Origin: Robinsoniella sp.
Lineage (GTDB): Bacteria; Bacillota; Clostridia; Lachnospirales; Lachnospiraceae
Reading direction: 5' to 3'
NCBI GenBank assembly: GCA_022788205.1
Contig: JALEVQ010000077.1
Span: 1-64,000, forward strand
DNA length: 64,000 nt
A model generated the notes under the pieces. That model was not told the DNA's origin. It saw nothing but the letters and a program-made list of their open reading frames with translations, and ran no database searches. Below, in pieces: positions 2,662 to 19,117 of this stretch. Every line of letters starts with the position of its first letter. The first letter of the stretch is position 1. The position numbers and the translations under genes are program-made.

Positions 2662-2797
2662 AAAGGAAACATTGTCAGGCAGAGAAGGTTTCGTTTCTCT
2701 GTGGAGAGATGAATACGATAGACTGGTGTGCCGGCAGCGGTGCAGGAAGGTTTGGAAAGGAGAATGTGCATTTCCAACTGTGCAGACAGAGAGGAAA

Positions 2798-3625
2798 ATG
2801 CGCTTGTTAAAATTTATGAAGATTGGAAACAGAGTGTTTGACACAGAAAATCATACTTATATTATGGGAATTTTGAATGTGACACCGGATTCCTTCTCGG
2901 ACGGAGGAAAGTGGAACAATAAGGATGCAGCTTTAAGGCACACAGAGGAGATGATCAAAGAAGGTGCTGATCTGATCGATATCGGAGGGGAATCGACAAG
3001 ACCAGGATACACCATGCTCTCGGATGAGGAAGAGATGGAGCGCGTTCTGCCGATGATTGAGATGGTGAAGTCAAATTTTGATATCCCGATTTCGGTGGAT
3101 ACATACAAGTCAGCGGTCGCAGAGGCGGCAGTGAAGGTGGGTGCTGATCTGGTCAATGACATTTGGGGCTTGAAGTATGACAGAAAGATTGCGGATGTGA
3201 TCGCAAAAAGCGGTGTAACATGCTGTCTGATGCACAACCGCACGGAAGCAAATTATCAGAATTTTGTCGAGGATATGTTAAATGATCTGCGCGAGACGGT
3301 CGCGATCGCAAAGGAGGCAGGGATCGACGATGACAAGATCATGCTTGATCCGGGTGTTGGCTTTGGAAAGACATATGAGAATAACCTGGAGGCGATCAAC
3401 CACTTAGAGAGAATGCATGAGCTGTCCTACCCGATTCTGCTTGGAACTTCGAGAAAATCGGTGATCGGTCTGACTTTGAATCTGCCGTCGACTGAGAGAG
3501 TGGAGGGAACGGTGGCGACAACGGTTCTCGGCGTGGTGAAGAGAGCGGCATTTGTGCGTGTTCATGACGTAAAGGAAAACAAGAGAGCCATCCTGATGAC
3601 AGAGGCGATTTTGGGCAGAAGATAG
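2798..3625 (+). CDS. folP: Dihydropteroate synthase
   Basis: Condenses 6-hydroxymethyl-dihydropterin diphosphate with p-aminobenzoate; the sulfonamide target. Signatures: MGILNVTPDSFSDGG near the N-terminus, DIGGESTRPGY, VNDIWG, LDPGVGFGKT and LGTSRKSVIG, in the right order over about 275 residues. The open frame runs back to 2672, but that upstream stretch does not resemble the family. ATG 2798 (after GAGAGG) or ATG 2816 are the likely starts. About 135 bp separate it from the HD gene, the widest gap in the operon. Confidence 0.95.
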   Translation: MRLLKFMKIGNRVFDTENHTYIMGILNVTPDSFSDGGKWNNKDAALRHTEEMIKEGADLIDIGGESTRPGYTMLSDEEEMERVLPMIEMVKSNFDIPISVDTYKSAVAEAAVKVGADLVNDIWGLKYDRKIADVIAKSGVTCCLMHNRTEANYQNFVEDMLNDLRETVAIAKEAGIDDDKIMLDPGVGFGKTYENNLEAINHLERMHELSYPILLGTSRKSVIGLTLNLPSTERVEGTVATTVLGVVKRAAFVRVHDVKENKRAILMTEAILGRR

Positions 3626-4459: not shown

Positions 4460-5582
4460 GTTAGGTGAACTGCGAAAAGAAATCGACGAGATTGACAGAG
4501 AGATAGTGGAGCTGTTTGAGAAGAGGATGAAGATCTGCGGCGAAGTGGCGGAATTTAAGATCGAGACAGGCAAAAAAGTGTTTGACAAAGAGAGGGAGAA
4601 ATCAAAAATCAAGACTTTGACAGAGCTTGCGCACAGCGATTTTAACCGCCACGGTGTCGAGGAGCTGTTTCAGCAGATCATGGCGATGAGCAGAAAGCTG
4701 CAGTATCAGCTGCTTGCAAAGAATGGTGTGATCGGTCGGCTCCCGTTTATCGCAGTCAAAGATGTGGACAGAGAGAAAGTGCGCGTTGTCTTTCAGGGAG
4801 TGGAAGGCGCATACAGCGAAGCAGCGATGCGCCAGTATTTCAGCGAGAATATCACTTCCTTCCATGTCGAAAAATGGAGGGATGCGATGGAGTCGATACA
4901 GGAAGGTGCAGCGGATTACGCGGTGCTTCCCATTGAAAATTCTTCCGCTGGGATTGTGGCAGATGTGTACGATCTTCTGATGGAATATGACAATTATATT
5001 GTCGGTGAGCAGGTGATTCGCTGTGAACATGCGCTGCTCGGTGTGGAAGGGACAAAGCTTGACGAGATCAAGACGGTATATTCGCATCCGCAGGCACTCA
5101 GCCAGTGCAGCAAATTTCTGGATGAACACCGCGAATGGCAGCAGGTTCCGCTGGCAAACACGGCGGTCGCAGTCAAAAAAGTGGTCGAAGAACAAGACAA
5201 GACACAGGTGGCAATCGGAAGTCTGTTTGCCGCAGAATGTTTCCACGCTGCGGTTTTGAAGGAGCACATTTACTATAATGAGGCGAACTCGACAAGATTT
5301 ATCATTGTGTCGAACCAGAGAGTATTTCGCGAGGATGCCAAGAAGATCAGCATCTGTTTTGAGCTGCCTCACACAAGTGGATCACTTTACAACATGCTGT
5401 CCCACTTTATCTACAACAATCTGAATATGAGCCGCATTGAGTCGAGACCGATTCCGGGAAAAAACTGGGAGTATCGCTTTTTTGTTGATTTTGAGGGAAA
5501 TTTAGCGGACAGCGGGGTGAAGAATGCACTGCGCGGCATCAGGGAAGAGGCAAACTATTTTAAAATTTTAGGGAATTACTAG
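4452..5582 (+). CDS. pheA: Chorismate mutase / prephenate dehydratase (P-protein)
   Basis: Makes phenylpyruvate from chorismate. N-terminal AroQ chorismate mutase (about residues 4-85, LRKEIDEIDREIVELFEKRM), then prephenate dehydratase (about 105-285; GVEGAYSEAAM, PIENSSAGIV, NSTRFIIVS with the catalytic Thr) and a C-terminal ACT domain for phenylalanine feedback (about 295-370, with ESRP). Start ATG 4452 overlaps the folBK stop and lies 11 bases after AAGGAG; GTG 4440 is an alternative. It shares the folate transcript, and chorismate is also the source of p-aminobenzoate. Confidence 0.93.
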   Translation: MIELGELRKEIDEIDREIVELFEKRMKICGEVAEFKIETGKKVFDKEREKSKIKTLTELAHSDFNRHGVEELFQQIMAMSRKLQYQLLAKNGVIGRLPFIAVKDVDREKVRVVFQGVEGAYSEAAMRQYFSENITSFHVEKWRDAMESIQEGAADYAVLPIENSSAGIVADVYDLLMEYDNYIVGEQVIRCEHALLGVEGTKLDEIKTVYSHPQALSQCSKFLDEHREWQQVPLANTAVAVKKVVEEQDKTQVAIGSLFAAECFHAAVLKEHIYYNEANSTRFIIVSNQRVFREDAKKISICFELPHTSGSLYNMLSHFIYNNLNMSRIESRPIPGKNWEYRFFVDFEGNLADSGVKNALRGIREEANYFKILGNY

Positions 5583-5596
5583 AGAGGACAAAAACA

Positions 5597-6889
5597 ATGA
5601 CAAGAATATCAGAACTTGTGATTTATCGACATTTTGAACACGAAGAGATCTTAAATGACATGACATGGATTATGGACCATTATCAGAATGAGACAGAGGA
5701 TCGTGAAAAAGTCAGAACCTTGTTTTTTTCCTGTATACATGGACTGATTGATCTTGCCGTCTCTTATGGATTTGAACATAACCTGTGGCACAATTATCTG
5801 ACTTTTCTGCTGGTGAATAACGAGAATGCCTACAGCAAATCATGTGAGATTGTAGGAGCGGTGCAGGGAAGTATCAATAACCTGGCACGCCATGACTTCG
5901 AGATTTTTAAGGAGCTGTATGACTACAATTTTTCCGATCTCTCGACAGCGCTTGGGACAGATTGCTTTCAGGTGATTGAAGATTACGAGAATGTGGATCA
6001 GAACAGTAAGCTGTTCAACAAGAGAATTCGCGACCGTATCTGTGATTTGAGCATACGGCTGAAGAATTCGAGAGATGTCGATGAGTTTATGACCGATATG
6101 ACATTGTTTTACCAGGATTTTGGCGTCGGCAAACTGGGACTTCACAAAGCGTTCCGCATTGTCCACAGGGAAGAGGGCGCTGAGATTGTGCCGATCACCA
6201 AGATCGCTCATGTGAATCTGGAAGATCTTGTCGGATATGAGATTGCGAAAAAGAAACTGATCGATAACACGGAGGCATTCGTGAAGGGAAAGAAGGCAAA
6301 CAACTGTCTTCTCTTCGGCGCAGCAGGTACCGGAAAATCTTCCAGTATCAAGGGAATTTTGAACCGCTATTATGACCAGGGACTTCGCATCATTGAGATT
6401 TACAAGCATCAATTCCAGGATCTGAACGATGTGATTGCCCAGATCAAAAATAGAAATTATAAATTTATCATCTATATGGATGATTTGTCATTTGAAGAAT
6501 TCGAGATCGAATATAAGTATCTGAAAGCAGTGATCGAAGGAGGTCTCGAGAAGAAACCGGACAATATTTTGATTTATGCGACGAGCAATCGCCGTCATCT
6601 GGTGCGCGAGAGCTTTAAAGACAAGGAGGAGCGCGATGAGGAAATTCATTCCTCCGACACCGTCCAGGAAAAGTTATCGCTCGTCTACCGATTCGGAGTG
6701 ACCATCTTTTTTGGATCACCGGATAAAAAAGAATTTCAGAATATTGTCAAGACGCTTGCTGACCGGTATCATGTGAATATGCCGGAGAATCAGCTCTATC
6801 TGGAGGCAAACAGATGGGAGTTAAATCATGGAGGACTTTCAGGCAGAACGGCACAGCAGTTTATTGATTATCTGCTCGGACAACAGTAG
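5597..6889 (+). CDS. DUF815-family AAA ATPase
   Basis: A 430-residue protein whose C-terminal half (from about 215) is an AAA-type ATPase: Walker A GAAGTGKSS near 240 and Walker B FIIYMDDLSFEE near 295. The N-terminal half is helical with no domain I recognise. The layout matches the DUF815 (YhhZ-like) family, whose function is unknown. It follows pheA by 14 bases, so it is probably on the same transcript, and a strong terminator follows at 6937. Nothing ties it biochemically to folate or phenylalanine. Confidence 0.8.
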   Translation: MTRISELVIYRHFEHEEILNDMTWIMDHYQNETEDREKVRTLFFSCIHGLIDLAVSYGFEHNLWHNYLTFLLVNNENAYSKSCEIVGAVQGSINNLARHDFEIFKELYDYNFSDLSTALGTDCFQVIEDYENVDQNSKLFNKRIRDRICDLSIRLKNSRDVDEFMTDMTLFYQDFGVGKLGLHKAFRIVHREEGAEIVPITKIAHVNLEDLVGYEIAKKKLIDNTEAFVKGKKANNCLLFGAAGTGKSSSIKGILNRYYDQGLRIIEIYKHQFQDLNDVIAQIKNRNYKFIIYMDDLSFEEFEIEYKYLKAVIEGGLEKKPDNILIYATSNRRHLVRESFKDKEERDEEIHSSDTVQEKLSLVYRFGVTIFFGSPDKKEFQNIVKTLADRYHVNMPENQLYLEANRWELNHGGLSGRTAQQFIDYLLGQQ

Positions 6890-6936
6890 AGAAGGCACCG
6901 CGCCCAAAAGGCGCAGAAAGACAGAGAGCATCGACA

Positions 6937-6994
6937 AAGAAGTCATAGAAGATGAAAGCAGGGATTGCTGAGATTCTGATATGGCTTCTTTTTT
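6937..6994 (+). terminator. Terminator after the folate/pheA/DUF815 operon
   Basis: An 11-bp stem (AAGAAGTCATA with TATGGCTTCTT, one G-U pair) encloses a loop of about 33 nt and is followed by a T run. Confidence 0.7.
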
Positions 6995-7131
6995 GCATGA
7001 GAAAACATATATATAATAAAAAAAGAAAGAAAAAAGAAGAATATTACAAAAAAATGTACAAAAACTCTAGTCTTTTTTTGCGTTTGATAGTAAAATATAA
7101 GTAATTATTTAGAAGCAGTGAGGTGAAGTTT

Positions 7132-8673
7132 ATGCAAATTATGACGTTTGCGGCGATTGATGTAGGCTCCTATGTGACAGAGATGAAGATTTATGAATTG
7201 TCCGCTCAATACGGGATGAAGGAGATTGATTGTATACAGAGTGCCCTGGAATTGGGAAAAGATTCTTTTACACGGAAAAAAATCGGTGTTGAGCTGATGG
7301 ATGAATTGTGCAAGGTCTTGAGTGATTTTAAGAGAATTATGAACGGCTACAAAGTAGATGCGTATCGTGCGTGCGCGACAAGTGCCATCAGAGAGGCAAA
7401 GAATAAGCTGATTATGCTTGATTATATTGAAAAGCATACAGGGATTCATCTGGAGGTACTTGGAAACTCAGAGCAGCGTTTCCTGGACTGCAAATCGATC
7501 GCGTCAAGTGAGAGTGAATTTAACCAGATTATTCAGGATGGAACGGCGATTGTGGATGTGGGCGGAGGAAGTGTCCAGATTTCACTGTTTGAGAATGGAA
7601 AGCTGATGACGACACAGAATATTCGAATCGGAAATCTTCGTGTCCGCGAAAAATTGTCCACGATAGAACAGACAGAGGAACATTTTGAGAAGATGGTAGA
7701 GGAGCTCATCAACAATGAGCTGGAGAGTTTTGAAAAGTTGTACTTAAAAGACAGAGAGATCAAAAATATTATCATCATCGGAGATTATCTTCTGGAGCTG
7801 ATGCAGAGAGAGTCGGACGGTGAACCGACGACGATGATCAAAAGAGAACAGTTTCAGAAGCGATATGAGGAGATTGTCAGCCAGAGCCAGGAAGAGGTGG
7901 CAGAAAAATATGATATCCCATCGGAGAGCAGTTCTCTGATTTTGCCTTCTCTTGTCATCTACAAGCGATTTATTGAGATATGCAATGCGCAGATGATCTG
8001 GATGCCGGGATTTAGTTTGAGTGACGGCATTGCGTATGATTATGCCGAGAAAAAGAAAATCATCAAAAATGGTCACAATTTTGATGATGATATCATCGCT
8101 GAGGCGAGAAATCTTGCCAAGCGCTATCAGTGTAATAAAGGGCATATCAAGACCATGGAAAATCTTGCCTTGGCGATTTTCGACAAGATGAAAAAAAATC
8201 ACGGTATGGGTAAGAGAGAACGCCTGCTCTTGAGAATCGCTGTCATTTTACACGGATGCGGAAAATATATTAGCCTGACAGAAGTCTCCGATTGCTCCTA
8301 CAGCATTATTATGGCGACAGAGATCATAGGGCTTTCTCACATGGAACGCGAGATGATCGCGAATGTAGTCAGATACAATACAAAAGAGTTTGAGTATTAT
8401 GATGTGATCACAGCCCATTCGGAGATGCACAAAGAAGAGTATTTGCTGATCACAAAATTGACTGCGATTTTGCGCGTGGCAAATGCACTTGACCGCAGCC
8501 ATCAGCAAAATTTTGAAAATGCAAAGTTTGCACTGAAGGATGACCGTCTTTTGATTACAGTGGAGACGCAGAAGGATATCACTCTGGAGAAGGCTTTGTT
8601 CGAGGAGAAGGCAGATTTCTTTGAGGAAGTCTTCAGTGTCCGCCCGGTAATCCGTCAGAAGAGACATTTTTAG
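7132..8673 (+). CDS. ppx: Exopolyphosphatase / Ppx-GppA phosphatase with HD domain
   Basis: ASKHA-fold phosphatase acting on polyphosphate or pppGpp. The N-terminal half shows AAIDVGS (first phosphate loop), CATSAIREA near residue 80 and IVDVGGGSVQIS near 140. The C-terminal part (about 305-510) is an HD-like helical domain of the kind found in longer Ppx proteins. Start ATG 7132 is chosen because GAGGTGA lies five bases upstream; GTG 7123 is also in frame. Sixteen bases separate it from ppk, so synthesis and breakdown of polyphosphate are co-transcribed. Confidence 0.88.
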   Translation: MQIMTFAAIDVGSYVTEMKIYELSAQYGMKEIDCIQSALELGKDSFTRKKIGVELMDELCKVLSDFKRIMNGYKVDAYRACATSAIREAKNKLIMLDYIEKHTGIHLEVLGNSEQRFLDCKSIASSESEFNQIIQDGTAIVDVGGGSVQISLFENGKLMTTQNIRIGNLRVREKLSTIEQTEEHFEKMVEELINNELESFEKLYLKDREIKNIIIIGDYLLELMQRESDGEPTTMIKREQFQKRYEEIVSQSQEEVAEKYDIPSESSSLILPSLVIYKRFIEICNAQMIWMPGFSLSDGIAYDYAEKKKIIKNGHNFDDDIIAEARNLAKRYQCNKGHIKTMENLALAIFDKMKKNHGMGKRERLLLRIAVILHGCGKYISLTEVSDCSYSIIMATEIIGLSHMEREMIANVVRYNTKEFEYYDVITAHSEMHKEEYLLITKLTAILRVANALDRSHQQNFENAKFALKDDRLLITVETQKDITLEKALFEEKADFFEEVFSVRPVIRQKRHF

Positions 8674-8689
8674 TCTAGGAGGAGAAAAA

Positions 8690-10840
8690 ATGGGAGAGAT
8701 TGATTTTACAAAACCAATTTATTATACAAACAGAGAGTCAAGCTGGCTTAGCTTTAATGCTCGTGTGCTCAGCGAGGCGAGGGATAAGACGCTGCCTCTA
8801 TTTGAGCGCCTGAAATTCTTGAGCATCACTTCTTCAAATCTTGACGAGTTTTTTATGATCCGTGTGGCATCGTTAAAAGATATGGTGCATGCACGATATA
8901 CGAAAAAGGATATCGCAGGTCTGACAGCGGAGGAACAGTTGGCGCAGATCACAAAAGAGGCGCATGATCTTGTCAATGTCCAGTACTCCACCTACAATCG
9001 TTCTGTTCTGCCTGCCTTAAAGAACGTGGGGCTGACCATCATCACAGCTCACGAGGATTTGAAAGAGGAGGAGGCGGATTTTGTCGATCAGTACTTTGAG
9101 GAGAATGTCTATCCGGTACTGACGCCGATGGCGATGGATTCCTCGAGACCGTTCCCTCTGATCCGGAATAAGACGCTGAATATCGGTGCACTGATCCGCA
9201 AAAAAGACGGGGAGTCAAAGACAGAATTTGCGACGGTTCAGGTCCCGAGTGTGCTGCCGAGAATGGTAGTTCTCCCGGAAAAAGAGGCGGGAAAGAAAAA
9301 GGTCATTTTGCTTGAGGAGATTATCGAGCGAAACATTGGAAAATTGTTCTTAAATTATGATGTTGTCTGCGCACACCCGTATCGAATCATGAGAAATGCG
9401 GATCTGACGATCGATGAGGATGAGGCGGCCGATCTGCTCAAAGAAATTCAGAAACAGCTCAAAAAGCGCCAGTGGGGCGAGGTGATCCGGCTTGAGATCG
9501 AGGACAAGATGAATGCAAAGCTGCTCAAGATTCTGAAAAAAGAGTTTGATATCAAGGAAGAGGAAATCTTTGAGATTAACGGACCGCTGGACTTGACCTT
9601 CCTGATGAAGATGTATGGTCTGCCGGGATATGAAGAGTATAAATATAAGCCATATCGTCCGCAGCCTGTCCCAGCAATGATGGAGGAGGGAGATATTTTC
9701 TCTCATATACGAAAAGGAGATATCTTACTGCACCATCCATACATGACCTTCGACCCGGTAGTCGATTTTGTTCGCCAGGCGGCAAAGGATCCAGATGTAC
9801 TTGCGATCAAGCAGACACTGTACCGTGTCAGCGGAAACTCACCGATCATTGCGGCGCTTGCTCAGGCGGCTGAGAATGGAAAGCAGGTTTCCGTTCTGGT
9901 CGAGCTGAAAGCGCGCTTTGATGAGGAGAACAATATCGTCTGGGCGAAGATGCTCGAGAAAGCAGGGTGCCATGTCATCTATGGACTGGTCGGATTAAAG
10001 ACACACAGTAAGATCACACTCGTCGTACGCAGGGAGGAAGACGGAATCCGGCGTTATGTTCATCTGGGAACCGGAAACTATAATGATTCAACGGCAAAAC
10101 TGTACACAGACTGCGGTATCTTGACGTGTTCGGAGCCGATCGGGGAGGATGCGACAGCAGTATTTAACATGTTGTCCGGTTATTCGGAGCCAAAGAGATG
10201 GAATCGCCTTGCGGTGGCGCCGATCTGGCTGAGAAATAAATTTACAAAGCTGATTGAGCGTGAGACAAAAAATGCGAGAGAGGGCAAACCGGCACACATT
10301 ATCGCAAAGATGAATTCCCTGTGCGATCCGCAGATTATCGCCACACTGTATGAGGCATCTGCAGCGGGAGTGAAGATTGAGTTGATCGTGCGCGGAATCT
10401 GCTGTTTGAAGGTAGGAATTCCGGGAGTGAGTGAAAATATTTCCGTCCGTTCCATTGTTGGAAATTTCCTGGAGCACAGCCGCATTTTCTATTTCCTGAA
10501 CAATGGAATGGAAGAAATTTATATGGGCAGTGCAGACTGGATGCCTAGAAATCTGGACAAACGTGTGGAGATTCTCTTCCCGGTAGAGTGCGAAGAGCTG
10601 AAGAAGGAAGTGTTCCATATCCTGCAGATTCAGCTGGAGGATAATGTAAAAGCACATATCTTACAGCCGGATAATACATATGTGAAGCAGGATAAGAGAG
10701 GGAAAGTGTTGCTGGATTCACAGAACTACTTCTGCAGGGAGGCTGTTGAGAGGGCGAAAATGCCACAGGATCAGCAAGATCCGATCAAAAACAGAGTGTT
10801 TATTCCGGCAGAACCGATTGAGATCGAAGAAGAATCGTGA
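8690..10840 (+). CDS. ppk1: Polyphosphate kinase 1
   Basis: Reversible transfer of ATP gamma-phosphate onto polyphosphate. The 716-residue length fits PPK1. N-terminal domain (NRESSWLSFNARVLSEA), head domain, then the two phospholipase-D-like C-terminal domains with the phospho-acceptor histidine in GLKTHSKITLVVRR and the second conserved histidine in EHSRIFYF. RBS AGGAGG lies 9 bases before ATG 8690. Partner of the upstream phosphatase. The C-terminus has a short acidic tail. Confidence 0.95.
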   Translation: MGEIDFTKPIYYTNRESSWLSFNARVLSEARDKTLPLFERLKFLSITSSNLDEFFMIRVASLKDMVHARYTKKDIAGLTAEEQLAQITKEAHDLVNVQYSTYNRSVLPALKNVGLTIITAHEDLKEEEADFVDQYFEENVYPVLTPMAMDSSRPFPLIRNKTLNIGALIRKKDGESKTEFATVQVPSVLPRMVVLPEKEAGKKKVILLEEIIERNIGKLFLNYDVVCAHPYRIMRNADLTIDEDEAADLLKEIQKQLKKRQWGEVIRLEIEDKMNAKLLKILKKEFDIKEEEIFEINGPLDLTFLMKMYGLPGYEEYKYKPYRPQPVPAMMEEGDIFSHIRKGDILLHHPYMTFDPVVDFVRQAAKDPDVLAIKQTLYRVSGNSPIIAALAQAAENGKQVSVLVELKARFDEENNIVWAKMLEKAGCHVIYGLVGLKTHSKITLVVRREEDGIRRYVHLGTGNYNDSTAKLYTDCGILTCSEPIGEDATAVFNMLSGYSEPKRWNRLAVAPIWLRNKFTKLIERETKNAREGKPAHIIAKMNSLCDPQIIATLYEASAAGVKIELIVRGICCLKVGIPGVSENISVRSIVGNFLEHSRIFYFLNNGMEEIYMGSADWMPRNLDKRVEILFPVECEELKKEVFHILQIQLEDNVKAHILQPDNTYVKQDKRGKVLLDSQNYFCREAVERAKMPQDQQDPIKNRVFIPAEPIEIEEES

Positions 10841-10887
10841 GGTCAAGCAGACACCGAAAAACATGTATAAATGATTCCTTATGGAGA

Positions 10888-10923
10888 AACTCCGCTGTTC
10901 TATTTAAGAATGGCGGAGTTTTT
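10888..10923 (+). terminator. Terminator after ppk1
   Basis: Perfect stem AACTCCGC / GCGGAGTT with a 17-nt loop and a T run. Confidence 0.85.
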
Positions 10924-10973
10924 CAATGCTCGGTTCTCTTTTTTCGATCCGTTGAGTGCACAAAAGAGACGCT

Positions 10974-11804
10974 TCACCGGCAAAGCATAAAGCGTTCAAT
11001 GATTTCGGCGATCCCGCCGTGGTTGTTGTCGCGGGTGGTGACGTAGTCCGCACAGGATTTCATCTCCTCGGATGCATTTGCCATGACGACGCCTGTGTGC
11101 GCTGCCTGGATCATGGAAAGGTCGTTCTCAGCATCTCCGGCTGCGATGGTGCAGGAGAGAGGAAATCCGAGCAGATCACACAAAATTTTGAGACTGTTTC
11201 CCTTGGACACGCCGTGTGGGATAAATTCCAGGTATCGCGGGCAGGAAAAGAGGGAATCGATTTTGCCCTCACGCCAGGAAAAGCTGGAGAGACGAAAGGC
11301 TTCCAACTGATCGTGCTCTCCGATCATGAGCACTTTAGGAGGCTCTTGAGAGCCAAGTTCCCTGATGACATCAGGGACTATTTTTTTGCCCATATGTACT
11401 TGGGCGATATATTCATCCAGATTTTTACTGGGATTCTCACACAGAACGTCTGTGCCGGCGTACGTCTGAATGTGGAGGTTTGCTTGTTTTGCCTCATCGA
11501 ACAGGCGGCGTACGAATGCGTGTGAGAGCGTCCGCTCAAAAATGACTTTTTTTTCATAAGAGTCGTAGATCACGGCGCCGTTGAAGCAAATCGCATAGCA
11601 TCCTTTTGAGGTGAGGCGCAATTCCTCGCACAGTTTGGCTGCGCTGGACAAGGCACGACCGGTGGTGATGACAATCTTGTGACCGGCGAGCAGAGCGCGG
11701 TGAATGGCAGCGCGATTCTCGGCGCCGATCTCTTTTCGGTCATCGAGCAGAGTGCCATCGAGGTCTGTAAATAAAATTTTGGGGGAAAGAGCACGGTTTG
11801 TCAT
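10974..11804 (-). CDS. HAD-superfamily Cof-type sugar-phosphatase
   Basis: A 276-residue HAD hydrolase of the Cof/YidA class. Motif I FTDLDGTLLDD (nucleophile Asp) near residue 13, motif II ITTGR near 47, motif III Lys in KGNSLK, motif IV AAGDAENDLSM near 222; the C2B cap sits between. Such enzymes dephosphorylate sugar phosphates, FMN or PLP; the substrate cannot be told from sequence. It follows the 66-codon gene by five bases and is last in a minus-strand operon with the PHP gene. Confidence 0.9.
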   Translation of the reverse strand: MTNRALSPKILFTDLDGTLLDDRKEIGAENRAAIHRALLAGHKIVITTGRALSSAAKLCEELRLTSKGCYAICFNGAVIYDSYEKKVIFERTLSHAFVRRLFDEAKQANLHIQTYAGTDVLCENPSKNLDEYIAQVHMGKKIVPDVIRELGSQEPPKVLMIGEHDQLEAFRLSSFSWREGKIDSLFSCPRYLEFIPHGVSKGNSLKILCDLLGFPLSCTIAAGDAENDLSMIQAAHTGVVMANASEEMKSCADYVTTRDNNHGGIAEIIERFMLCR

Positions 11805-11809
11805 AGCGA

Positions 11810-12010
11810 TTATGCCTCTTCCCTTTCTTTCTCCATAAAGGCTTGCAGTGCCTCATCGCTCTGGCTGACCCAGATGTCCTCTTCTTCCTCCGTCAATCCC
11901 AGATATTCGCGCAGGGTGCGGTTGTCGTCACTGAAATTCCAGTCTTCAGTGTAATCAAAAATTTCATCAAACTCGATGGTTCCAGCCATAAATTGTTCTC
12001 TAAATGTCAT
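11810..12010 (-). CDS. Small acidic protein, function unknown
   Basis: A 66-residue, strongly acidic protein (MTFREQFMAGTIEFDEIFDY start, EEEEDIW in the middle, helical C-terminus). RBS AAAGGA lies seven bases before the ATG. It has no transmembrane segment and no domain I recognise. Tight packing between the PHP gene and the HAD gene and a proper ribosome site argue that it is real. Function is not inferable. Confidence 0.7.
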   Translation of the reverse strand: MTFREQFMAGTIEFDEIFDYTEDWNFSDDNRTLREYLGLTEEEEDIWVSQSDEALQAFMEKEREEA

Positions 12011-12064
12011 GATAGTATCCTTTCTGATTGATCCATATTTTTTGTTGATAGTTGCAGCTACCGT

Positions 12065-12904
12065 TTAGAGCTGAGCGCGCATTGTCTCGAGAAGATCATA
12101 CGGAATTTTTAAATTTCCTCTGCCACAGCCAAGATCGATGGTCGGCTTGATGGAGCCGTGGAAATCCGATCCGCCTGAGATACAAAGACCATGGTGTCTG
12201 GCGAAGCGGCGCATGTCATCTTCCTGATATCCGATATAGGTAGAATAGATTGCCTCAATGCCAATCAAGCCTTCTTTTTTCAGGGCGTCGGCAAGGATAG
12301 CGAGTTCCTCTTCGGACATATGATATAAAAGCGGATGCGCAAGCACCGGAATGCCGCCGGATTCGCGGATCAGGCGGACGGCTTGGGCTGGCGAGACTTT
12401 TTCACGCGGCACATAACAAGGACAGTGATCGCCGACAAAGCGTGAAAATGCCTCCTCTGTAGTCTTGACATATCCCTTTTGCATCAGATATTCTGCAAAA
12501 TGTGCGCGGGTCCAGATGGCTTCTCCAAATAGGTTTTCCATCTCCTCCCAGGAAATCGCGATGTGATATTCCTGAAGCTTGGCGATCATCTTTTGGTTTC
12601 GGATTTCTCTGGAATGTTGGAATTGACACAGCTGATCCTGAAAAGATTGTGATCGGTAATCGATGTCCAGACCGACGATGTGGATGTCTTTTCCTTTATA
12701 TTCCGTGGAAAACTCGATGCCCGGTATGACCTCCAGATTCGTGTGGGCAGCAGCCTGCATTGCTTCGTCGAGACCTGCTGTCGTGTCGTGGTCAGTCAGC
12801 GCAAAGGCAGCCAGATTTTTTTCGAGCGCATAGGCGACCAGCTGGGAAGGAGAGTAGGTTCCGTCGGAGCAGTTTGAGTGTACATGTAAATCGATATATT
12901 TCAT
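12065..12904 (-). CDS. PHP-domain phosphoesterase
   Basis: A 279-residue PHP protein. Metal-binding motifs: DLHVHSNCSDGT near residue 5, FALTDHDTTAGL near 39, PGIEFSTEY near 65, later LAHPLLY, and GSDFHG near the C-terminus. This is the stand-alone YciV/TrpH-like class; E. coli YciV (RNase AM) removes 5-prime nucleotides from RNA, so a nuclease role is possible. The ATG at 12904 with AAAGGTGG upstream is the start; the longer frame to 13054 lacks family similarity. First gene of a three-gene minus-strand operon. Confidence 0.88.
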   Translation of the reverse strand: MKYIDLHVHSNCSDGTYSPSQLVAYALEKNLAAFALTDHDTTAGLDEAMQAAAHTNLEVIPGIEFSTEYKGKDIHIVGLDIDYRSQSFQDQLCQFQHSREIRNQKMIAKLQEYHIAISWEEMENLFGEAIWTRAHFAEYLMQKGYVKTTEEAFSRFVGDHCPCYVPREKVSPAQAVRLIRESGGIPVLAHPLLYHMSEEELAILADALKKEGLIGIEAIYSTYIGYQEDDMRRFARHHGLCISGGSDFHGSIKPTIDLGCGRGNLKIPYDLLETMRAQL

Positions 12905-13045: not shown

Positions 13046-13188
13046 GGAATGCAACCAATTGTTTTTTCAGCGTGTGTGAAATGTGAAAAGGGACGTGACA
13101 GATACTTGGCTTGAATCATGCATCAAACAAAAAGTTTTGGAAACGATGGATAAAAATAGAGATAGAAGAGAGGAACAGGAGGAAGAAC

Positions 13189-15432
13189 ATGAAAAAAGAG
13201 TGTTATCTGATCAAAGGGATGACGTGTGCTTCGTGCAGCAGTGCTGTGGAGCGTGTGACGCGCAAGCTCGACGGTGTCAAGGAAAGTCAGGTGAATCTGG
13301 CGACGAATCGGATGACGATCGAGTATGATGAGGAGAAGTTAAAACCAGAGGATATCATCGCCAAGATTGAGCGTGCCGGATTCGGGGCGGAGCTGGAGAT
13401 TCCAGAGGAGATCAAAAAAGAGAAAGAGCAGGAGAAGACAGAGAGTGAGAACACGCACGAGCAGATGAAGCGGAGATTGATTTTGAGTATCTGTCTTGCG
13501 ATTCCGCTTTTATATATCTCGATGGGGCATATGCTGCCGGTTACACTGCCGTTGCCGAATTTTTTAGACATGCACACACATCCGATGAATTTTGCGGTGA
13601 CGCAGCTGATCTTGACGGTATTGATCTTGATCTGCGGAAGAAAATTTTATATTGTGGGATTTAAGACGCTGTTTCACGGGCATCCAAACATGGATTCCCT
13701 TGTGGCAATCGGCACCGGAAGCGCTTTTCTTTATAGTCTTGTGATGACCATCTCGATCCCGAGTCATCCGGAAAATGCCCACAACCTTTACTATGAGTCA
13801 GCGGCAGTTGTGGTGACGCTGGTGATGCTCGGAAAATTTATGGAGAGCCGCAGCAAAGGTAAGACTTCAGAGGCGATCCAGAAATTGATGCAGTTAGCTC
13901 CGGATACAGCGATCCGGATGAGAGATGGAAAAGAAGAGGAAGTTCCGGTGGAGCAGATTCGAGAAGGAGAAATCCTGCTGGTTAAGCCGGGCAGTAAAGT
14001 GCCCCTCGACGGAGAAGTGATTTCAGGCAGCAGCAGTGTCGATGAGGCAATGCTGACAGGAGAGAGCATTCCTGTTGAGAAGGAAGTGGGAGATACGGTG
14101 ATCGGGGGAAGCATGAACTATAATGGCGCAATGCAGATCAAAGTGACGCACACAGGGGATGACACGACTTTGGCGAAGATCATCAAGCTGATGGAGGATG
14201 CACAGGGGAAGAAGGCTCCGATCTCAAAACTTGCGGATACGGTGGCGGGGTACTTTGTGCCGACCGTGATGGGAATTGCGTTGCTTGCTGCCTTGATCTG
14301 GAGTTTTACAGGATATCCGCTTTCTTTTGTGCTGACGATTTTTGTGTCTGTCCTTGTCATCGCATGCCCATGTTCCCTGGGGCTTGCGACGCCGACCGCG
14401 ATTATGGTGGGAACAGGTGTAGGTGCTTCAAATGGAATTCTGATCAAAAGCGGTGAGGCACTGGAAGTGACACACAAGACCGATATCGTGGTGCTCGACA
14501 AGACGGGAACGGTCACGGAGGGAAAGCCAAAGGTGATTGAGGTCATTCCTAGACAGGGAGAAAAAAAAGAATTGCTGTTTTTGGCGGCATGCTGTGAGAA
14601 GATGTCGGAACATCCGCTCGGCAATGCGATTGTGGAAGAAGCGAAAAGTCAGGGGATGGAACTGAAGACACCAGAGAAATTTGAGAGCCTGACCGGTCGC
14701 GGGATCTATGCAGAGCTGGAGGGAAAGAAGATTTTTATCGGCAATGAGCGGATGATGAGAGAACAGAAGGTTGGTCTGGAAGAGCTGAAAGAGAAATCCG
14801 ATGAGATCGCTCAGAAAGGGCAGACGCCCATGTTTGTCGTGGTAGATGGAAAGCTGGCGGGGATTATCAGCGTCGCTGATACGATCAAGAGCACGAGTGT
14901 GGAGGCCATCGACAAGATTCGAAAGATGGGTGTAGAGGTCGTGATGCTGACGGGAGACAACAAGAGAACTGCAGAGTATATCGGCAGCCAGGTGCATGTG
15001 GACCGTGTAGTCTCAGAGGTACTTCCGGGCGATAAGGCGATCGTAGTGGAACACCTGCAAAAAGAAGGAAAAAAAGTGATGATGGTAGGCGATGGAATCA
15101 ACGATGCGCCCGCACTGGCGCAGGCGGATATCGGATGTGCGATCGGGAGCGGAAGTGATATCGCGGTGGAATCGAGCGACATTGTCTTGATGAAATCAGA
15201 CCTTCTCGATGTGTACAAGGCGATTCGCCTGAGCAAGCTGACGATCCGCAATATCAAGGAAAATCTATTCTGGGCGTTTCTCTTTAACAGCCTTGGGATT
15301 CCAGTGGCAGCAGGAGTGTTGTATGCCTTTGGGGGACCACTCTTAAATCCGATGATCGCAGGATTTGCCATGTCGTGCAGTTCCGTGCTGGTTGTCAGCA
15401 ATGCGCTGCGTTTAAAGAGAGTAAAGCTGTAG
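13189..15432 (+). CDS. copA: Copper-exporting P1B-type ATPase
   Basis: Pumps Cu(I) out of the cytoplasm. One N-terminal heavy-metal domain (GMTCASC, C13/C16), then membrane helices, the actuator TGES loop, the intramembrane metal site CPC at residues 393-395, the phosphorylation site DKTGT at 437, SEHPLG and [10 protein letters not shown]. The last helices carry MSCSS before [10 protein letters not shown]. Length 747. The ATG at 13189 follows AGGAGG by six bases; the open frame upstream is not family-like. First gene of copA-csoR-copZ. Confidence 0.95.
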
Positions 15433-15513
15433 AAAAACACTACAAGATCGCAGAAGATGCGGAAAGATTTTCGCGTCGGACTAGAAGGCGTGGATGCGCC
15501 GTTGGAGGAAAAA

Positions 15514-15819
15514 ATGGAAGAAAGATGCTGTGAACAATGTGAAAGACATAAACATCGTGAGATGACAGAATATAAAGATCTGATGAATCGCCTCAGCAGA
15601 ATTGAAGGGCAAGTGCGCGGTGTTCGGAAGATGGTAGAAGAAGAGCGGTATTGTGTCGACATTTTAAATCAGGTGTCGGCGATCCAGTCGGCCCTCAATG
15701 CCTTCAATAAGTGTCTGCTCTCCAATCATATCAAGGGGTGTGTGGTGGAGCAGATCAAGCAGGGTGACGAGACAGTTGTCGATGAGCTGTGCAGCACAAT
15801 ACAAAAATTGATGAAATAA
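15514..15819 (+). CDS. csoR: Copper-sensing repressor CsoR
   Basis: A 101-residue DUF156/CsoR-family all-helical repressor. The Cu(I) ligand set Cys-His-Cys is present: C47 (RYCVDIL), H72 and C76 (NHIKGCV). The helix-1 signature NRLSRIEGQVRGV is complete. An extra Cys/His-rich N-terminus (ERCCEQCERHKHRE) precedes the domain and may bind metal. Start ATG 15514 after GGAGG; the earlier in-frame ATG at 15457 has no ribosome site. It most likely represses its own operon through the palindrome at 13025. Confidence 0.92.
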   Translation: MEERCCEQCERHKHREMTEYKDLMNRLSRIEGQVRGVRKMVEEERYCVDILNQVSAIQSALNAFNKCLLSNHIKGCVVEQIKQGDETVVDELCSTIQKLMK

Positions 15820-15928
15820 TAAAATGTGTTGATAGCCGAATAGACGGCAGACTTGCGGTTTGCCGCGTGTCCGGTTAGAATATATAAAAGAAAAATCAAG
15901 AAAAAGAAGAGTAAAAGGAGGAAAAAAT

Positions 15929-16123
15929 ATGACAGTATTAAAGGCAGAGGATATGCACTGTGGAAAATGCGTGGAGAGAATCACAAAGGCGATGGAGAGA
16001 GAAGGACTGAAATTTGAAGTGTCTCTTGAGAACAAGACAGTGACGATCGACGGAGATGCGAAGGCAGTGGCACTGGCGAAAGAAGTGATGGATGATCTGG
16101 GATTCGACACAGTAGAGATCTGA
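15929..16123 (+). CDS. copZ: Copper chaperone (heavy-metal-associated domain)
   Basis: A 64-residue single HMA domain with the metal loop MHCGKC (C11, C14) and a beta-alpha-beta pattern. It hands Cu(I) to CopA and CsoR. RBS AAGGAGG precedes ATG 15929; the longer frame from 15860 is unlikely. Last gene of the copper operon. The 109-bp gap after csoR holds a weak CGGCA/TGCCG hairpin but no T run. Confidence 0.88.
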   Translation: MTVLKAEDMHCGKCVERITKAMEREGLKFEVSLENKTVTIDGDAKAVALAKEVMDDLGFDTVEI

Positions 16124-16261: not shown

Positions 16262-16268
16262 TAAAGAG

Positions 16269-16340
16269 CAGCTTGTAGGGGAATCGAACCCCTGTTTCCG
16301 CCGTGAGAGGGCGGCGTCTTAACCGCTTGACCAACAAGCC
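16269..16340 (-). tRNA. tRNA-Glu (anticodon CUC), copy 1
   Basis: Read on the minus strand, the gene begins GGCTTGTTGGTCAAGCGG and ends ACAAGCTG. The anticodon arm CCGCC-CTCTCAC-GGCGG gives anticodon CUC, glutamate (GAG codons). The T arm AGGGGTTCGATTCCCCT is standard. The acceptor stem has a G1-U72 wobble and CCA is not encoded. It has its own promoter (16352-16379) and terminator. Confidence 0.93.
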
Positions 16341-16550: not shown

Positions 16551-16557
16551 TAGGGAG

Positions 16558-16629
16558 CAGCTTGTAGGGGAATCGAACCCCTGTTTCCGCCGTGAGAGGG
16601 CGGCGTCTTAACCGCTTGACCAACAAGCC
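16558..16629 (-). tRNA. tRNA-Glu (anticodon CUC), copy 2
   Basis: Identical in sequence to the copy at 16269-16340 over the whole 72-nt gene, with the same CUC anticodon. It has its own promoter and terminator, so the whole transcription unit has been duplicated in tandem. Flanking bases differ at a few positions, so the duplication is not brand new or is under relaxed selection outside the tRNA. Confidence 0.93.
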
Positions 16630-16668: not shown

Positions 16669-16807
16669 GTAGAAATTTAAAAAAAATTGTATTTTTTTAG
16701 ATACAATCTGCTGCCGGATCAGCAGTTTGAAGTAAGAGTTTGGATGGATTGTATCAAGCGAAAAAGTTTTGAATATGATGTAGAAAAGAATAAATGAGGG
16801 TAACAGT

Positions 16808-16839
16808 ATGGCAAAAATTGTGATTGATCCAGGGCATGG
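16808..16839 (+). pseudogene. 5-prime fragment of the split CwlC-like amidase
   Basis: ATG 16808, behind GAGGGT, encodes MAKIVIDPGHG, the opening strand and first zinc motif of an Amidase_3 N-acetylmuramoyl-L-alanine amidase. Directly after the histidine codon the sequence changes to serine-recombinase sequence. The rest of the amidase resumes at 18386. The first codons stay in frame with the recombinase, so the amidase start and its upstream signals can drive the recombinase frame. Confidence 0.9.
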
Positions 16840-16850
16840 GGAAGGAAAGA
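16825..16850. other. attL junction of the recombinase element
   Basis: Amidase sequence GATCCAGGG runs into the core CATGG at 16835-16839 and then into element sequence GGAAGGAAAG. The shared 5-bp core with attR marks the crossover region; the exact cleavage dinucleotide cannot be decided. Confidence 0.8.
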
Positions 16851-18390
16851 TGCGCAAGATGGATGCCCGGGTGGCAGCGTATGTCCGATTGTCGCGGGAA
16901 GATGGGGATAAACTGGAGAGTGACAGTGTGGGAAACCAAAAAACGCTCCTCCAGGAGTTTATCCGCAGGCGAGAAGGGTTAAAATTGATCGACCTCTATA
17001 TTGATGATGGGTGGAGCGGGACGAATTTTGAACGACCGTCTTTTCAGCGCATGATCCGGGACATCGAGGGCGGGAGGATTGACTGTGTCATCGTGAAGGA
17101 TCTCTCAAGATTTGGCAGGGACTATCTGGAGACGGGGCGTTACCTGGAGCGCTATTTCCCGCAGCACAATATTCGGTTTATCTCTGTTTTGGATGGGATC
17201 GACAGCGAGAAAAGGCAGTATGATCTGATGATGCCGATCAAAAATTTATTCAATGAGCAGTATGCCCGTGACATCTCGAAAAAAGTGCACGCTGCGGTGA
17301 GGACAAAACAGGAGGCGGGACAATTTATCGGCGCTTTTGCGTCGTATGGATATCAGAAGTCACCGGAGAATAAAAATAAGCTGGTGGTAGACCCGTATGC
17401 AGCTGAAATTGTGAAGAAAATTTTTTCGATGTACGGCGAGGGATACTCAAAGACTCAGATTGCGAGATGGCTGAATGAGCATCAGATTCTCCCGCCGTCC
17501 GAGTATAAAAGGCAGAACGGAGAGCGCTATCGCAACGGAAATTGTCTGGGAGGTACCGCGTGCTGGACCTACTCTACAGTGTATAAGATTTTGCAGAATG
17601 AGATGTATGTCGGAAATATGGTTCAGGGGAAAAAATATCAGGAGATGCACCGGAGACAGAAGATGACAAGGAAAGAGGAATGGGTCGTGGTGGAGAAGAC
17701 GCAAGAGGCGATTATCGACAAGACAACTTGGGAGAGAGTGCAGCGAATGATGCAGAGGCAGACACGTGTAGTGGGATCGGGAGGCGAACAGAACCGGTTT
17801 GCCGGACTTCTCAGGTGTGCAGACTGTGGGAGAATGCTTGTGAGAAAAGGTGAGGGGGAGAAAAGCCGTTATTACTGTGGATCTTATATTCGCTCAGGGA
17901 GAAGCTGTTGTACACCTCATACGGTGACGTATGCAGTTTTGATGGAACTGTTATCACGAGATTTTGAGAAGATGATTCCGATGGTCGAGCAAGAGAGGGA
18001 AAGACTCCGTCAGGAAATGTTGAAAGACAGACAGAAGGAAGTGCACAGAGCATATAAAAAGTTAGAGGCAGAGTGTGAAACGGTGCTGAATTTGAAGAGA
18101 GAAGTGTATGAGGATTTTAAAAAAGGTATTCTGTCAGAGGAAGAGAAAAACTTCTACATGGAGAGTTACCGGGAAAAAGAAAAAAGTTTGAGAATGCAGA
18201 TGGATTGCCTGGAGGGGAAAAAGAAGTTTGATACAGGGCAGGATAGCGAAGTCCAGAAAGAGACGGCACAGGGGAAAGAGAGGATGGAAGCATGGATGAA
18301 GAGGGCAGTTTTGGCAGAGATGATGGAAGAGATTGTGGTCGGAGAGGGAAAAATTGAACTGGTCTATCGCTTTTGACATCCGCCCCATGG
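16835..18390 (+). mobile_element. Minimal serine-recombinase element inserted in an amidase gene
   Basis: The element is bounded by CATGG at 16835-16839 and CATGG at 18386-18390. Removing one copy plus the 1551 bp between the starts of the two copies joins CCAGGG-CATGG to CATGG-CGGCAG and rebuilds a continuous amidase frame (IDPGHGGRDPG). Almost the entire insert is one recombinase gene: it begins 11 bp after the left core and its stop is 9 bp before the right core. No cargo, second integrase or excisionase gene is visible. Its size, a multiple of three, keeps the two amidase parts in one frame. Confidence 0.9.
16850..18376 (+). CDS. Large serine recombinase
   Basis: Site-specific recombinase of about 505 residues. 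N-terminal resolvase domain with the nucleophile in VAAYVRLSRED (Ser about residue 15), DDGWSGTNFERPSFQRM and VKDLSRFGRD; then the Recombinase domain (about 170-290), a zinc ribbon (RCADCGRML with YYCGSY), a coiled coil and a short C-terminal tail. GGGGAAGG at the left junction serves as ribosome site for ATG 16850 (or ATG 16859). The frame also continues upstream to the amidase ATG at 16808, so a fusion start is possible. It is the only gene of the element and presumably catalyses its insertion and excision. Confidence 0.92.
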   Translation: MRKMDARVAAYVRLSREDGDKLESDSVGNQKTLLQEFIRRREGLKLIDLYIDDGWSGTNFERPSFQRMIRDIEGGRIDCVIVKDLSRFGRDYLETGRYLERYFPQHNIRFISVLDGIDSEKRQYDLMMPIKNLFNEQYARDISKKVHAAVRTKQEAGQFIGAFASYGYQKSPENKNKLVVDPYAAEIVKKIFSMYGEGYSKTQIARWLNEHQILPPSEYKRQNGERYRNGNCLGGTACWTYSTVYKILQNEMYVGNMVQGKKYQEMHRRQKMTRKEEWVVVEKTQEAIIDKTTWERVQRMMQRQTRVVGSGGEQNRFAGLLRCADCGRMLVRKGEGEKSRYYCGSYIRSGRSCCTPHTVTYAVLMELLSRDFEKMIPMVEQERERLRQEMLKDRQKEVHRAYKKLEAECETVLNLKREVYEDFKKGILSEEEKNFYMESYREKEKSLRMQMDCLEGKKKFDTGQDSEVQKETAQGKERMEAWMKRAVLAEMMEEIVVGEGKIELVYRF

Positions 18391-18400
18391 CGGCAGAGAC
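18376..18400. other. attR junction of the recombinase element
   Basis: Element sequence CATCCGCCC runs into core CATGG at 18386-18390 and then into amidase sequence CGGCAGAGAC. The predicted circular attP reads CGCCCCATGGGGAAGG, with CCCCATGGGG perfectly palindromic; the predicted attB reads CCAGGGCATGGCGGCAG. Confidence 0.8.
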
Positions 18401-19117
18401 CCTGGGGCAGTCTATGAAGGAAGACAGGAAAAAGATGATAATCTGAATCTGGCATTAGCAGTGGGGGATCTCTTGCAGGAAGCAGGGGAGGATGTCGTCT
18501 ATACGAGAGTGGAGGATGTCTATGATTCACCGCTGCAAAAGGCGCAGATGGCGAATGAGGCGGATGCAGACTGGTTTCTCTCTTTCCACAGAAATGCAGG
18601 CGATGAGCCAAATCAGTATGAAGGGGTACAGACTTTGGTGTTTGACATGTCGGGGGATAAGGTGGCGCTTGCCAAAAAGATCAACGAAAATCTGGCAGAA
18701 CTTGGCTTTCGAAACATCGGTGTAGAAGAGCGACCGAATCTGACGGTGCTGCGGCGCACAAAGATGCCTGCAGTCTTGATCGAGACTGGATTTATCGATT
18801 CAGACCGCGACAATGAGCTCTTCGACACGCAGTTTGAGGCGATCGCAAAGGCAATCGCTGAGGCAGTTCTTGAGATGACAGGGGGCGAGGAGAACTTGCA
18901 GACCTATCATGTCCAGGTAGGTGCGTACCGGAACAGACAAAATGCGGACGCGATGGCACAGAGACTTGCGGAGGATGGCTTTCCTGCCGAGATTATTTCG
19001 GATCAGGGATACAACAAAGTCATCAGCGGATCCTTCCGGAGCCTGGACAATGCGATCCGCATGGAGCGCAGACTGCGCAGAGCGGGATACCCGACGTATA
19101 TTATAAAAAAACTTTAA
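18386..19117 (+). pseudogene. 3-prime part of split N-acetylmuramoyl-L-alanine amidase (CwlC-like)
   Basis: Joined to codons 1-9 at 16808 this gives a 252-residue protein. Amidase_3 domain (1-175) has zinc ligands H10, E24 and H77 (LSFHRNAG) and catalytic E142 (LIETGF); a SPOR domain follows (181-252, HVQVGAYRNRQNAD). There is no signal peptide. Size, order and lack of a signal match B. subtilis CwlC, the sigma-K-dependent amidase that helps lyse the mother cell. In the inserted state H10 stays with the 5-prime fragment, the 3-prime part has no ribosome site, and no active enzyme can be made. No frameshift or stop is seen, so the gene looks kept for use after excision. Confidence 0.88.

Follow-up and report, generated by a model that had tools for sequence, protein, structure and literature searches.

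A serine-recombinase insert splitting a CwlC-type amidase gene in Robinsoniella sp., with related splits in other spore-wall genes and predicted excision during sporulation

Results

An amidase gene split at its zinc-histidine codon

The stretch of DNA analysed here, called the window, consists of 64,000 nucleotides of Robinsoniella sp. (GenBank assembly GCA_022788205.1, contig JALEVQ010000077.1, positions 1 to 64,000 of the forward strand). It contains an amidase gene, called cwlC below, split by a 1551-bp insert whose single recognised gene encodes a large serine recombinase with Resolvase, Recombinase and Zn_ribbon_recom domains (Pfam). Read directly, the amidase starts with the ATG at 16808 and proceeds through MAKIVIDPGH to CATGG at 16835-16839; a second CATGG stands at 18386-18390, giving a spacing of 1551 bp. 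Joining the two pieces yields a protein of 252 residues with H10, E24, H77 and E142, and Pfam recognised Amidase_3 (122.6 bits) and SPOR (61.4 bits) in the 3' part. An initial annotation, made from the letters alone, had described a 1551-bp serine-recombinase insert at the zinc-histidine codon of an amidase, and an in-frame join to 252 residues with these four residues and a SPOR domain. Both descriptions agree with the coordinates and domains read here. The same annotation had taken the CATGG repeat as the junction. Two copies are indeed present, but a 5-bp repeat means little alone, and the shared core is only CA, because the left end of cwlC in a sister species (G002) reads CAGGG, against CATGG on the right. 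An assembly artefact was ruled out, as the assemblies of three species agree. The features of the locus, in open reading frames (ORFs) and sites, are the following.

16771..16782, plus strand: GAATATGATGTA, departing from the SigK consensus, at the position where many orthologues have a SigK-type -10 (CATANNNTA); compared by eye, weak for the window's genome
16808..16837, plus strand: 5' piece of the CwlC-type amidase, codons 1-10 (MAKIVIDPGH)
16808..16849, plus strand: in-frame lead of the recombinase ORF (amidase codons and linker); alternative recombinase start at 16850
16835..16860, plus strand: putative attL, core CA 16835-16836 and P' arm; GGNGNAGRAAARATGCG at 16838-16854
16850..18376, plus strand: large serine recombinase (PF00239, PF07508 and PF13408), the only recognised gene of the element
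18362..18387, plus strand: putative attR, P arm 18362-18385 and core CA 18386-18387
18386..19117, plus strand: 3' piece of the amidase, beginning with the repeated H10 codon and ending with the stop
18398..18871, plus strand: Amidase_3 domain part (Pfam)
18899..19108, plus strand: SPOR domain (Pfam)

Ahead of the 3' part, an in-frame stop lies three codons before the histidine codon and there is no start codon in between, so the whole amidase domain cannot be translated without the join. The recombinase ORF is in frame with the amidase ATG, and its candidate starts are this ATG and the ATG at 16850, which follows GGAAGGAAAG. No signal peptide was seen by eye on the amidase. No CwlC model of NCBIfam matched it, the best being CwlD at 71.5 bits, under the cut-off of 221.55; we infer that it is of the CwlC type and has a role in sporulation. 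Searched with the joined protein at E≤1e-40, the window's genome yielded one match, 6 of its 14 first-look candidates having been scored.

The same split in the genus and the family

The cwlC split of the window's genome (G000) was found again in the two further species of the genus that were searched (G001 and G002), with recombinases 65-67% and amidases 75-77% identical to those of the window. Ratios of nonsynonymous to synonymous substitution rates (dN/dS, NG86; '<' where dS was saturated and 3 was assumed) across the three species were <0.053, <0.051 and 0.102 for the cwlC 3' part, and <0.076, <0.085 and <0.076 for the recombinase: both are under purifying selection in the genus. For the cwlD 3' part, described below, they were <0.061, 0.115 and 0.064. 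Decay of the 3' part in other carriers of the insert, which the initial annotation had named as contrary evidence, is thus not seen in the two sister species, and the intact relatives for which it had called run through the codon at which the window's gene is split.

The family set comprised 397 genomes, the family being taken as Lachnospiraceae. The joined protein was matched in 209 of them at E≤1e-40, with up to 6 candidates scored per genome, and most of the matches listed are unbroken from residue 1-4 to about 250 or about 175. The pattern of a split-type right junction occurred in 10/397 genomes and its reversed form in none. Together with the split in the sister species, this is more than chance would give. 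Right ends of split type at the histidine codon are present in at least 11 of the 209 (G000, G001, G002, G034, G097, G199, G217, G274, G301, G334 and G382), and the left piece of cwlC was also located in six (G000, G001, G002, G199, G274 and G334). Past the core, the open frame extends over 165-264 codons in the 11 cwlC of split type (in G199 it ends at 183, with the stretch) and over 180-192 codons in the 7 cwlD.

Two candidates were set aside. The junction-pattern match in G468, one of the ten, was in the wrong frame, by chance, and was dropped. In G238 (contig C153), cwlC lies behind two recombinases of 34-36% identity and was not counted: DAGHGG is kept at the junction, and the join falls just before it. 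In G334 (contig C9:8000-24000, 6013-7411), cwlC is split by an opposite-strand gene for a diphosphate-dependent phosphofructokinase (PFK); the ends of this insert are att-like, and it has no recombinase.

cwlD and pdaB are split in the same genomes

Both sides of a split cwlD and of a split pdaB were located in G000 and G002. These two names are best-family calls: the pieces best match TIGR02883 (cwlD, 159-207 bits, three tested) and TIGR02764 (pdaB, 131 and about 205 bits), scores that lie under the whole-protein cut-offs of 221.55 and 237.4. Across 24 genomes, CwlD was over its cut-off in one and PdaB in none, most uninterrupted copies also falling under.

In G000, cwlD (contig C73) is split by 1960 bp with an esterase-like ORF of 482 residues (under its cut-offs) and no recombinase. 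The pdaB gene (contig C37) is in three pieces:

4544-4747, 2730-3005 and 262-576 of C37:1-9000, minus strand: pieces of pdaB in G000

The first pdaB insert, of 1553 bp, carries a ThrE-like ORF and no recombinase. In the second, a recombinase of 34% identity lies between two small ORFs. In G001, pdaB is likewise in three pieces and the cwlD 3' part has a split-type end; in G002, cwlD is split and pdaB is in two pieces. Outside these three genomes, G301 combines a recombinase against cwlC with a recombinase-free, GshA-like insert in pdaB.

The cwlD insert of G000 spans 4205-6163 of C73:11000-18000, and its esterase-like ORF, under cut-off, is secreted and of PHB-depolymerase type. ORFs within inserts or next to them (ThrE-like, GshA-like, PFK, MATE and esterase-like) were regarded as passengers. 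On contig C49 of G084, pdaB is split twice, its last piece about 40 kb off, and the first insert has SigI/RsgI-like genes by eye.

Ends of the inserts

The core was placed by the conserved codon (histidine CAY in the amidases, tryptophan TGG in pdaB), and arm symmetry was measured afterwards. Its first two bases are the same on both sides (CA or TG) in 19/19 two-ended inserts, an agreement that is partly built in for the CA of the amidases, since each side retains the codon. The third base may differ (CAG/CAT in G002 cwlC, CAC/CAT in G002 cwlD, TGA on the left of G000 pdaB). The P and P' arms are inverted repeats: over the 19 inserts, they match at 250/456 positions, whereas 2000 shuffles gave 125 on average and 155 at most. 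Of 38 half-sites, 27 have CGCA at -18, and none has it at another offset. The recombinase has the three domains of large serine recombinases, and the predicted attP would have, as theirs, inverted half-sites around a 2-bp core. The CA of the amidases is TG on the other strand; by eye, the amidase top strand and the pdaB bottom strand have CAYGSNGS in common.

Within G000, arms agree at 32 (cwlC-cwlD), 26 (cwlC-pdaB) and 30 (cwlD-pdaB) of 48 positions. A P' arm pattern matched exactly in G000 only at cwlC, pdaB and cwlD, with six more matches at 1 mismatch, against two in the reversed control. The sole exact match in G001 is cwlC, and G002 has three matches at 1 mismatch, none at a known insert end. 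The pattern was written from the G000 sites and G001 cwlC, so these matches speak for specificity, not discovery.

Most related recombinases lie in or against sporulation genes

At E≤1e-110, with at most 3 candidates scored per family genome, a close recombinase was found in 24/397 genomes, and 22 of the 24 lie in or against a sporulation gene, the assignments being based on neighbouring ORFs, on tblastn searches with uninterrupted references and on NCBIfam. Seven are at cwlC (G000, G001, G002, G199, G217, G274 and G301), four at cwlD (G029, G034, G218 and G228), ten at pdaB (G018, G028, G031, G059, G084, G108, G246, G340, G443 and G461) and one at spoVAD (G360), where the piece matches TIGR02845 positions 201-327 at 166 bits. 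Target halves stand on both sides of the recombinase, on one contig, at 12 of these 22 loci (G000, G001, G002, G199 and G274 for cwlC; G034 for cwlD; G018, G028, G031, G084, G108 and G461 for pdaB), and one gene half adjoins it at the remaining 10. The two recombinases left without an assigned target are those of G097 (contig end) and G252, where a split-type cwlD lies at a contig end beside a recombinase fragment.

A search of the order gave 12/392 genomes with a recombinase, four of them new: G693 and G705 against cwlC, G548 in pdaB, and G555 without an assigned gene. Recombinases 97% identical over 542 residues lie against cwlD in one genome (G029) and against cwlC in another (G693), and one 88% identical to this type lies against cwlC of G217. 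This natural evidence suggests that one enzyme type may use more than one gene. The recombinase tree held 26 sequences, G274 being left out owing to a frameshift. Relatives in phage records were about 31-41% identical, and those in plasmid records 34-36%, among ten listed in each case.

Viral carriage was considered and rejected: none of the 20 viral stretches that match the junction pattern matches the recombinase at 1e-5, and by frame these pattern matches look due to chance or, in one stretch (L097), to an amidase reading PAHGG. The G548 element (C1:1084000-1098000, 5723-12283), from another family of the order, splits pdaB and has a recombinase of 42-43% identity and, by eye, spore-germination (GerAB/GerAC-like) genes.

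Promoters, a small ORF and sporulation genes

We take CATANNNTA (SigK-type -10) and TATAAT as the consensus motifs. Upstream regions were collected from 21 uninterrupted orthologues (of 27 loci; those with the start located) and three split genes. The exact SigK-type motif is present in 12 of these 24 regions, where 0.6 were expected and at most 4 were found in 200 single-base shuffles.

A family of small ORFs, with a consensus of about YTVEREFLSKFSVEELLxRIIKSHL, immediately precedes the recombinase in 18/23 recombinase loci. It was located by position and profile (G097 not included), with nine seeds from six of the 18 loci and from G000 and G002. The loci without it are the three cwlC elements of the window's genus, G360 and G059, where the contig ends; in the window's genus, the pdaB inserts carry it. 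Pfam matched no family in the four small ORFs submitted. In C. difficile, a 53-residue factor restricts skin excision to the mother cell (available portions of PMC5025042 and PMC10747680), and the natural guess is therefore that the small ORF is a candidate excision or directionality factor. SpoIVA and SigK are over their family cut-offs in the window's genome.

Neighbourhood of the split gene

Just upstream of the split amidase, on the minus strand, lie two tandem tRNA-Glu (CTC) genes, at 16268-16340 and 16557-16629. Further upstream (13111-16123), a copper-type P-ATPase, a CsoR-like repressor and a heavy-metal-binding protein are encoded side by side, by eye.

Discussion

We consider it probable that the 1551-bp cwlC insert is cut out in the sporulating mother cell and the gene rejoined, that is, that excision is programmed. 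Transcription of the recombinase would be driven by the amidase's own late mother-cell promoter. The recombinase and a small partner protein, encoded in pdaB inserts in this genus, would then recombine attL with attR at the CA core, releasing a circle and restoring DPG/HGG. Three spore-wall enzymes would in this way be switched on in a cell that does not divide again, and the spore would retain the split genes. A split kept in sequenced DNA, together with selection on both parts, is as excision in a terminal cell predicts. The initial annotation had proposed a developmental or phase switch: the precise join, the non-decaying 3' part, the SigK-type promoters of orthologues and the sporulation-gene targets speak for the developmental form, and a phase switch in vegetative cells is disfavoured, all the targets found (cwlC, cwlD, pdaB and spoVAD) being sporulation-type genes. 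It had also spoken of a one-gene switch in one amidase. The element is real, but this description is too narrow, because several spore-wall genes are split, some by recombinase-free inserts with ends of the same kind.

Since both the cwlD insert and the first insert in pdaB end like the cwlC element but carry no recombinase, the same enzyme likely removes them as well. We put at about even the chances that the cwlC-resident recombinase cuts out its own element and also acts in trans on recombinase-free cassettes in cwlD and pdaB, with a partner supplied from a pdaB insert. This would amount to a bacterial DNA-splicing programme, with a three-exon pdaB.

Several observations weigh against programmed excision, or restrict it. 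When 5.8 billion proteins were searched, 3959 matches passed, and no excised cwlC of this clade was found among the 120 listed; the listed matches at 74-84% identity, 13 clusters, are all 3' ORFs of 213-225 residues from internal starts (five of the 13 were read, plus P0002, a similar ORF with an internal duplication). A missing excised copy is expected if excision is confined to the mother cell, and equally if it never occurs. A relative has cwlD without the insert: in P0248, an uninterrupted protein of 233 residues, residues 1-49 correspond to the 5' piece of G000 and residues 50-229 to the 3' piece, with the join between 49 and 50, and the protein is 82% identical to the cwlD 3' part of G001. 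Its junction is the one expected from excision and could be either an empty site or an excised copy; in the former case, the clade is not fixed for the cwlD insert. The G274 recombinase is frameshifted, and the cwlC 3' part of that genome stops after 165 codons, as if decaying. The window's own -10 (GAATATGATGTA) departs from the SigK form, exact TATAAT occurs in 6/24 upstream regions (1.7 expected, at most 5 in shuffles), and the window's element is without the small ORF. In 6/22 loci (G018, G031, G108, G246, G301 and G461), the recombinase is oriented against its target gene, so that use of the target's promoter is not general. Finally, arm agreement is 20-32 in seven within-genome pairs, and averages 23.1 in 164 between-genome pairs. 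Since pairs from one genome are not clearly more alike than pairs from different genomes, the site is to be seen as a trait of the family and is no proof of enzyme-site pairing.

The inserts might instead be selfish mobile elements in a safe harbour, with the conserved metal-site motif of spore cell-wall genes as attB and excision serving transfer only. The finding of 88-97% identical recombinases in different genes and genera, the larger size and other genes of some inserts, and TndX as a named relative at 34% among the plasmid records listed all point this way. We nevertheless regard it as unlikely, given that the one-gene form is present in all three searched species of the genus and is co-selected with the split gene, that recombinase-free inserts persist in cwlD and pdaB, and that a spore-former that never excised would be without these enzymes. 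Such mobility does explain the spread between genera, and both may hold, a mobile lineage having been reduced to a switch in the window's genus. Reversible phase variation in vegetative cells, in place of terminal developmental excision, was allowed for in the initial annotation, and a partner protein can let large serine recombinases work in either direction (PMC5025042). All four targets being of sporulation type, no joined allele of the clade standing among the proteins listed, and the orthologue promoters looking SigK-type, we judge it very unlikely.

Slighter still is the chance of decay, in which the pieces would be pseudogenes of a lineage that is giving up sporulation. One genome does have three broken spore-wall genes, and the recombinase and cwlC 3' part of G274 look damaged, but the low dN/dS of the cwlC and cwlD 3' parts in three species, the long open frames past the core in both genes, and SigK and SpoIVA over cut-off argue otherwise. 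Of the same very small probability is translation of the 3' piece alone from another start, giving a shortened amidase and leaving the insert without regulatory meaning. Gene callers do predict the 213-225-residue ORFs from internal starts, and a few inserts have an ATG shortly before the core (G002 cwlD). However, cwlC of G000, G001 and G002 has a stop 3-7 codons ahead of its histidine codon, and internal starts would lose H10 and the first strand.

If programmed excision is true, the switch would be far smaller than those named in the literature compared, and this would be the first case, in the literature searched, of several genes of one pathway split by inserts with a common site design. 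It would have a bearing on the timing of cortex maturation and mother-cell lysis in such clostridia, would account for automatic annotations that may list CwlD, PdaB or CwlC as lacking, and would offer natural sets of recombinase, site and partner for testing one serine recombinase at several loci.

TndX-type large serine recombinases are integrases of multi-gene conjugative elements. They are about 34% identical to the window's recombinase over 99% of its length, but between the ends found here lies one recognised gene, not a multi-gene conjugative or mobilizable element. In the heterocyst nif, fdxN and hupL elements (cited in PMC8987985), several split genes are joined in a terminally differentiated cell; each known element of this kind has its own recombinase, whereas here several inserts have none.

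Closer likenesses are found among sporulation elements, as described in the portions available of the papers cited. In skin, within sigK of Bacillus subtilis and Clostridioides difficile, a serine recombinase likewise splits a mother-cell sporulation gene that is rejoined in the mother cell (PMC5025042), and in C. difficile excision requires the small directionality factor CD1234 (PMC5025042). Skin is prophage-like and hits one gene, whereas the window's element has one gene in 1.55 kb and several genes are split per genome. The gin element in gerE of Bacillus cereus is a non-phage element removed in sporulation by the serine recombinase GirC with GirX, and has a 9-bp consensus; it differs in its 28.6 kb, 31 genes, three recombinases and single target gene (PMC5595907). 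Vfbin (spoVFB), SPbeta in spsM and yin (yabG) also sit in sporulation genes, and for yin a small directionality factor and att repeats are predicted; these are prophages or prophage-like, and the available portions of the source name none in cwlC, cwlD, pdaB or spoVAD (PMC10747680). Literature searches, whose scope left out subscription papers, preprints and supplements (e.g. of PMC10083194), gave no description of a split cwlC, cwlD, pdaB or spoVAD in the text available. The window's element interrupts a sporulation-type gene, encodes a recombinase and has att-like ends whose recombination would restore the frame. On the best reading, the cwlC element would be a variant of the skin/gin class of programmed excision.

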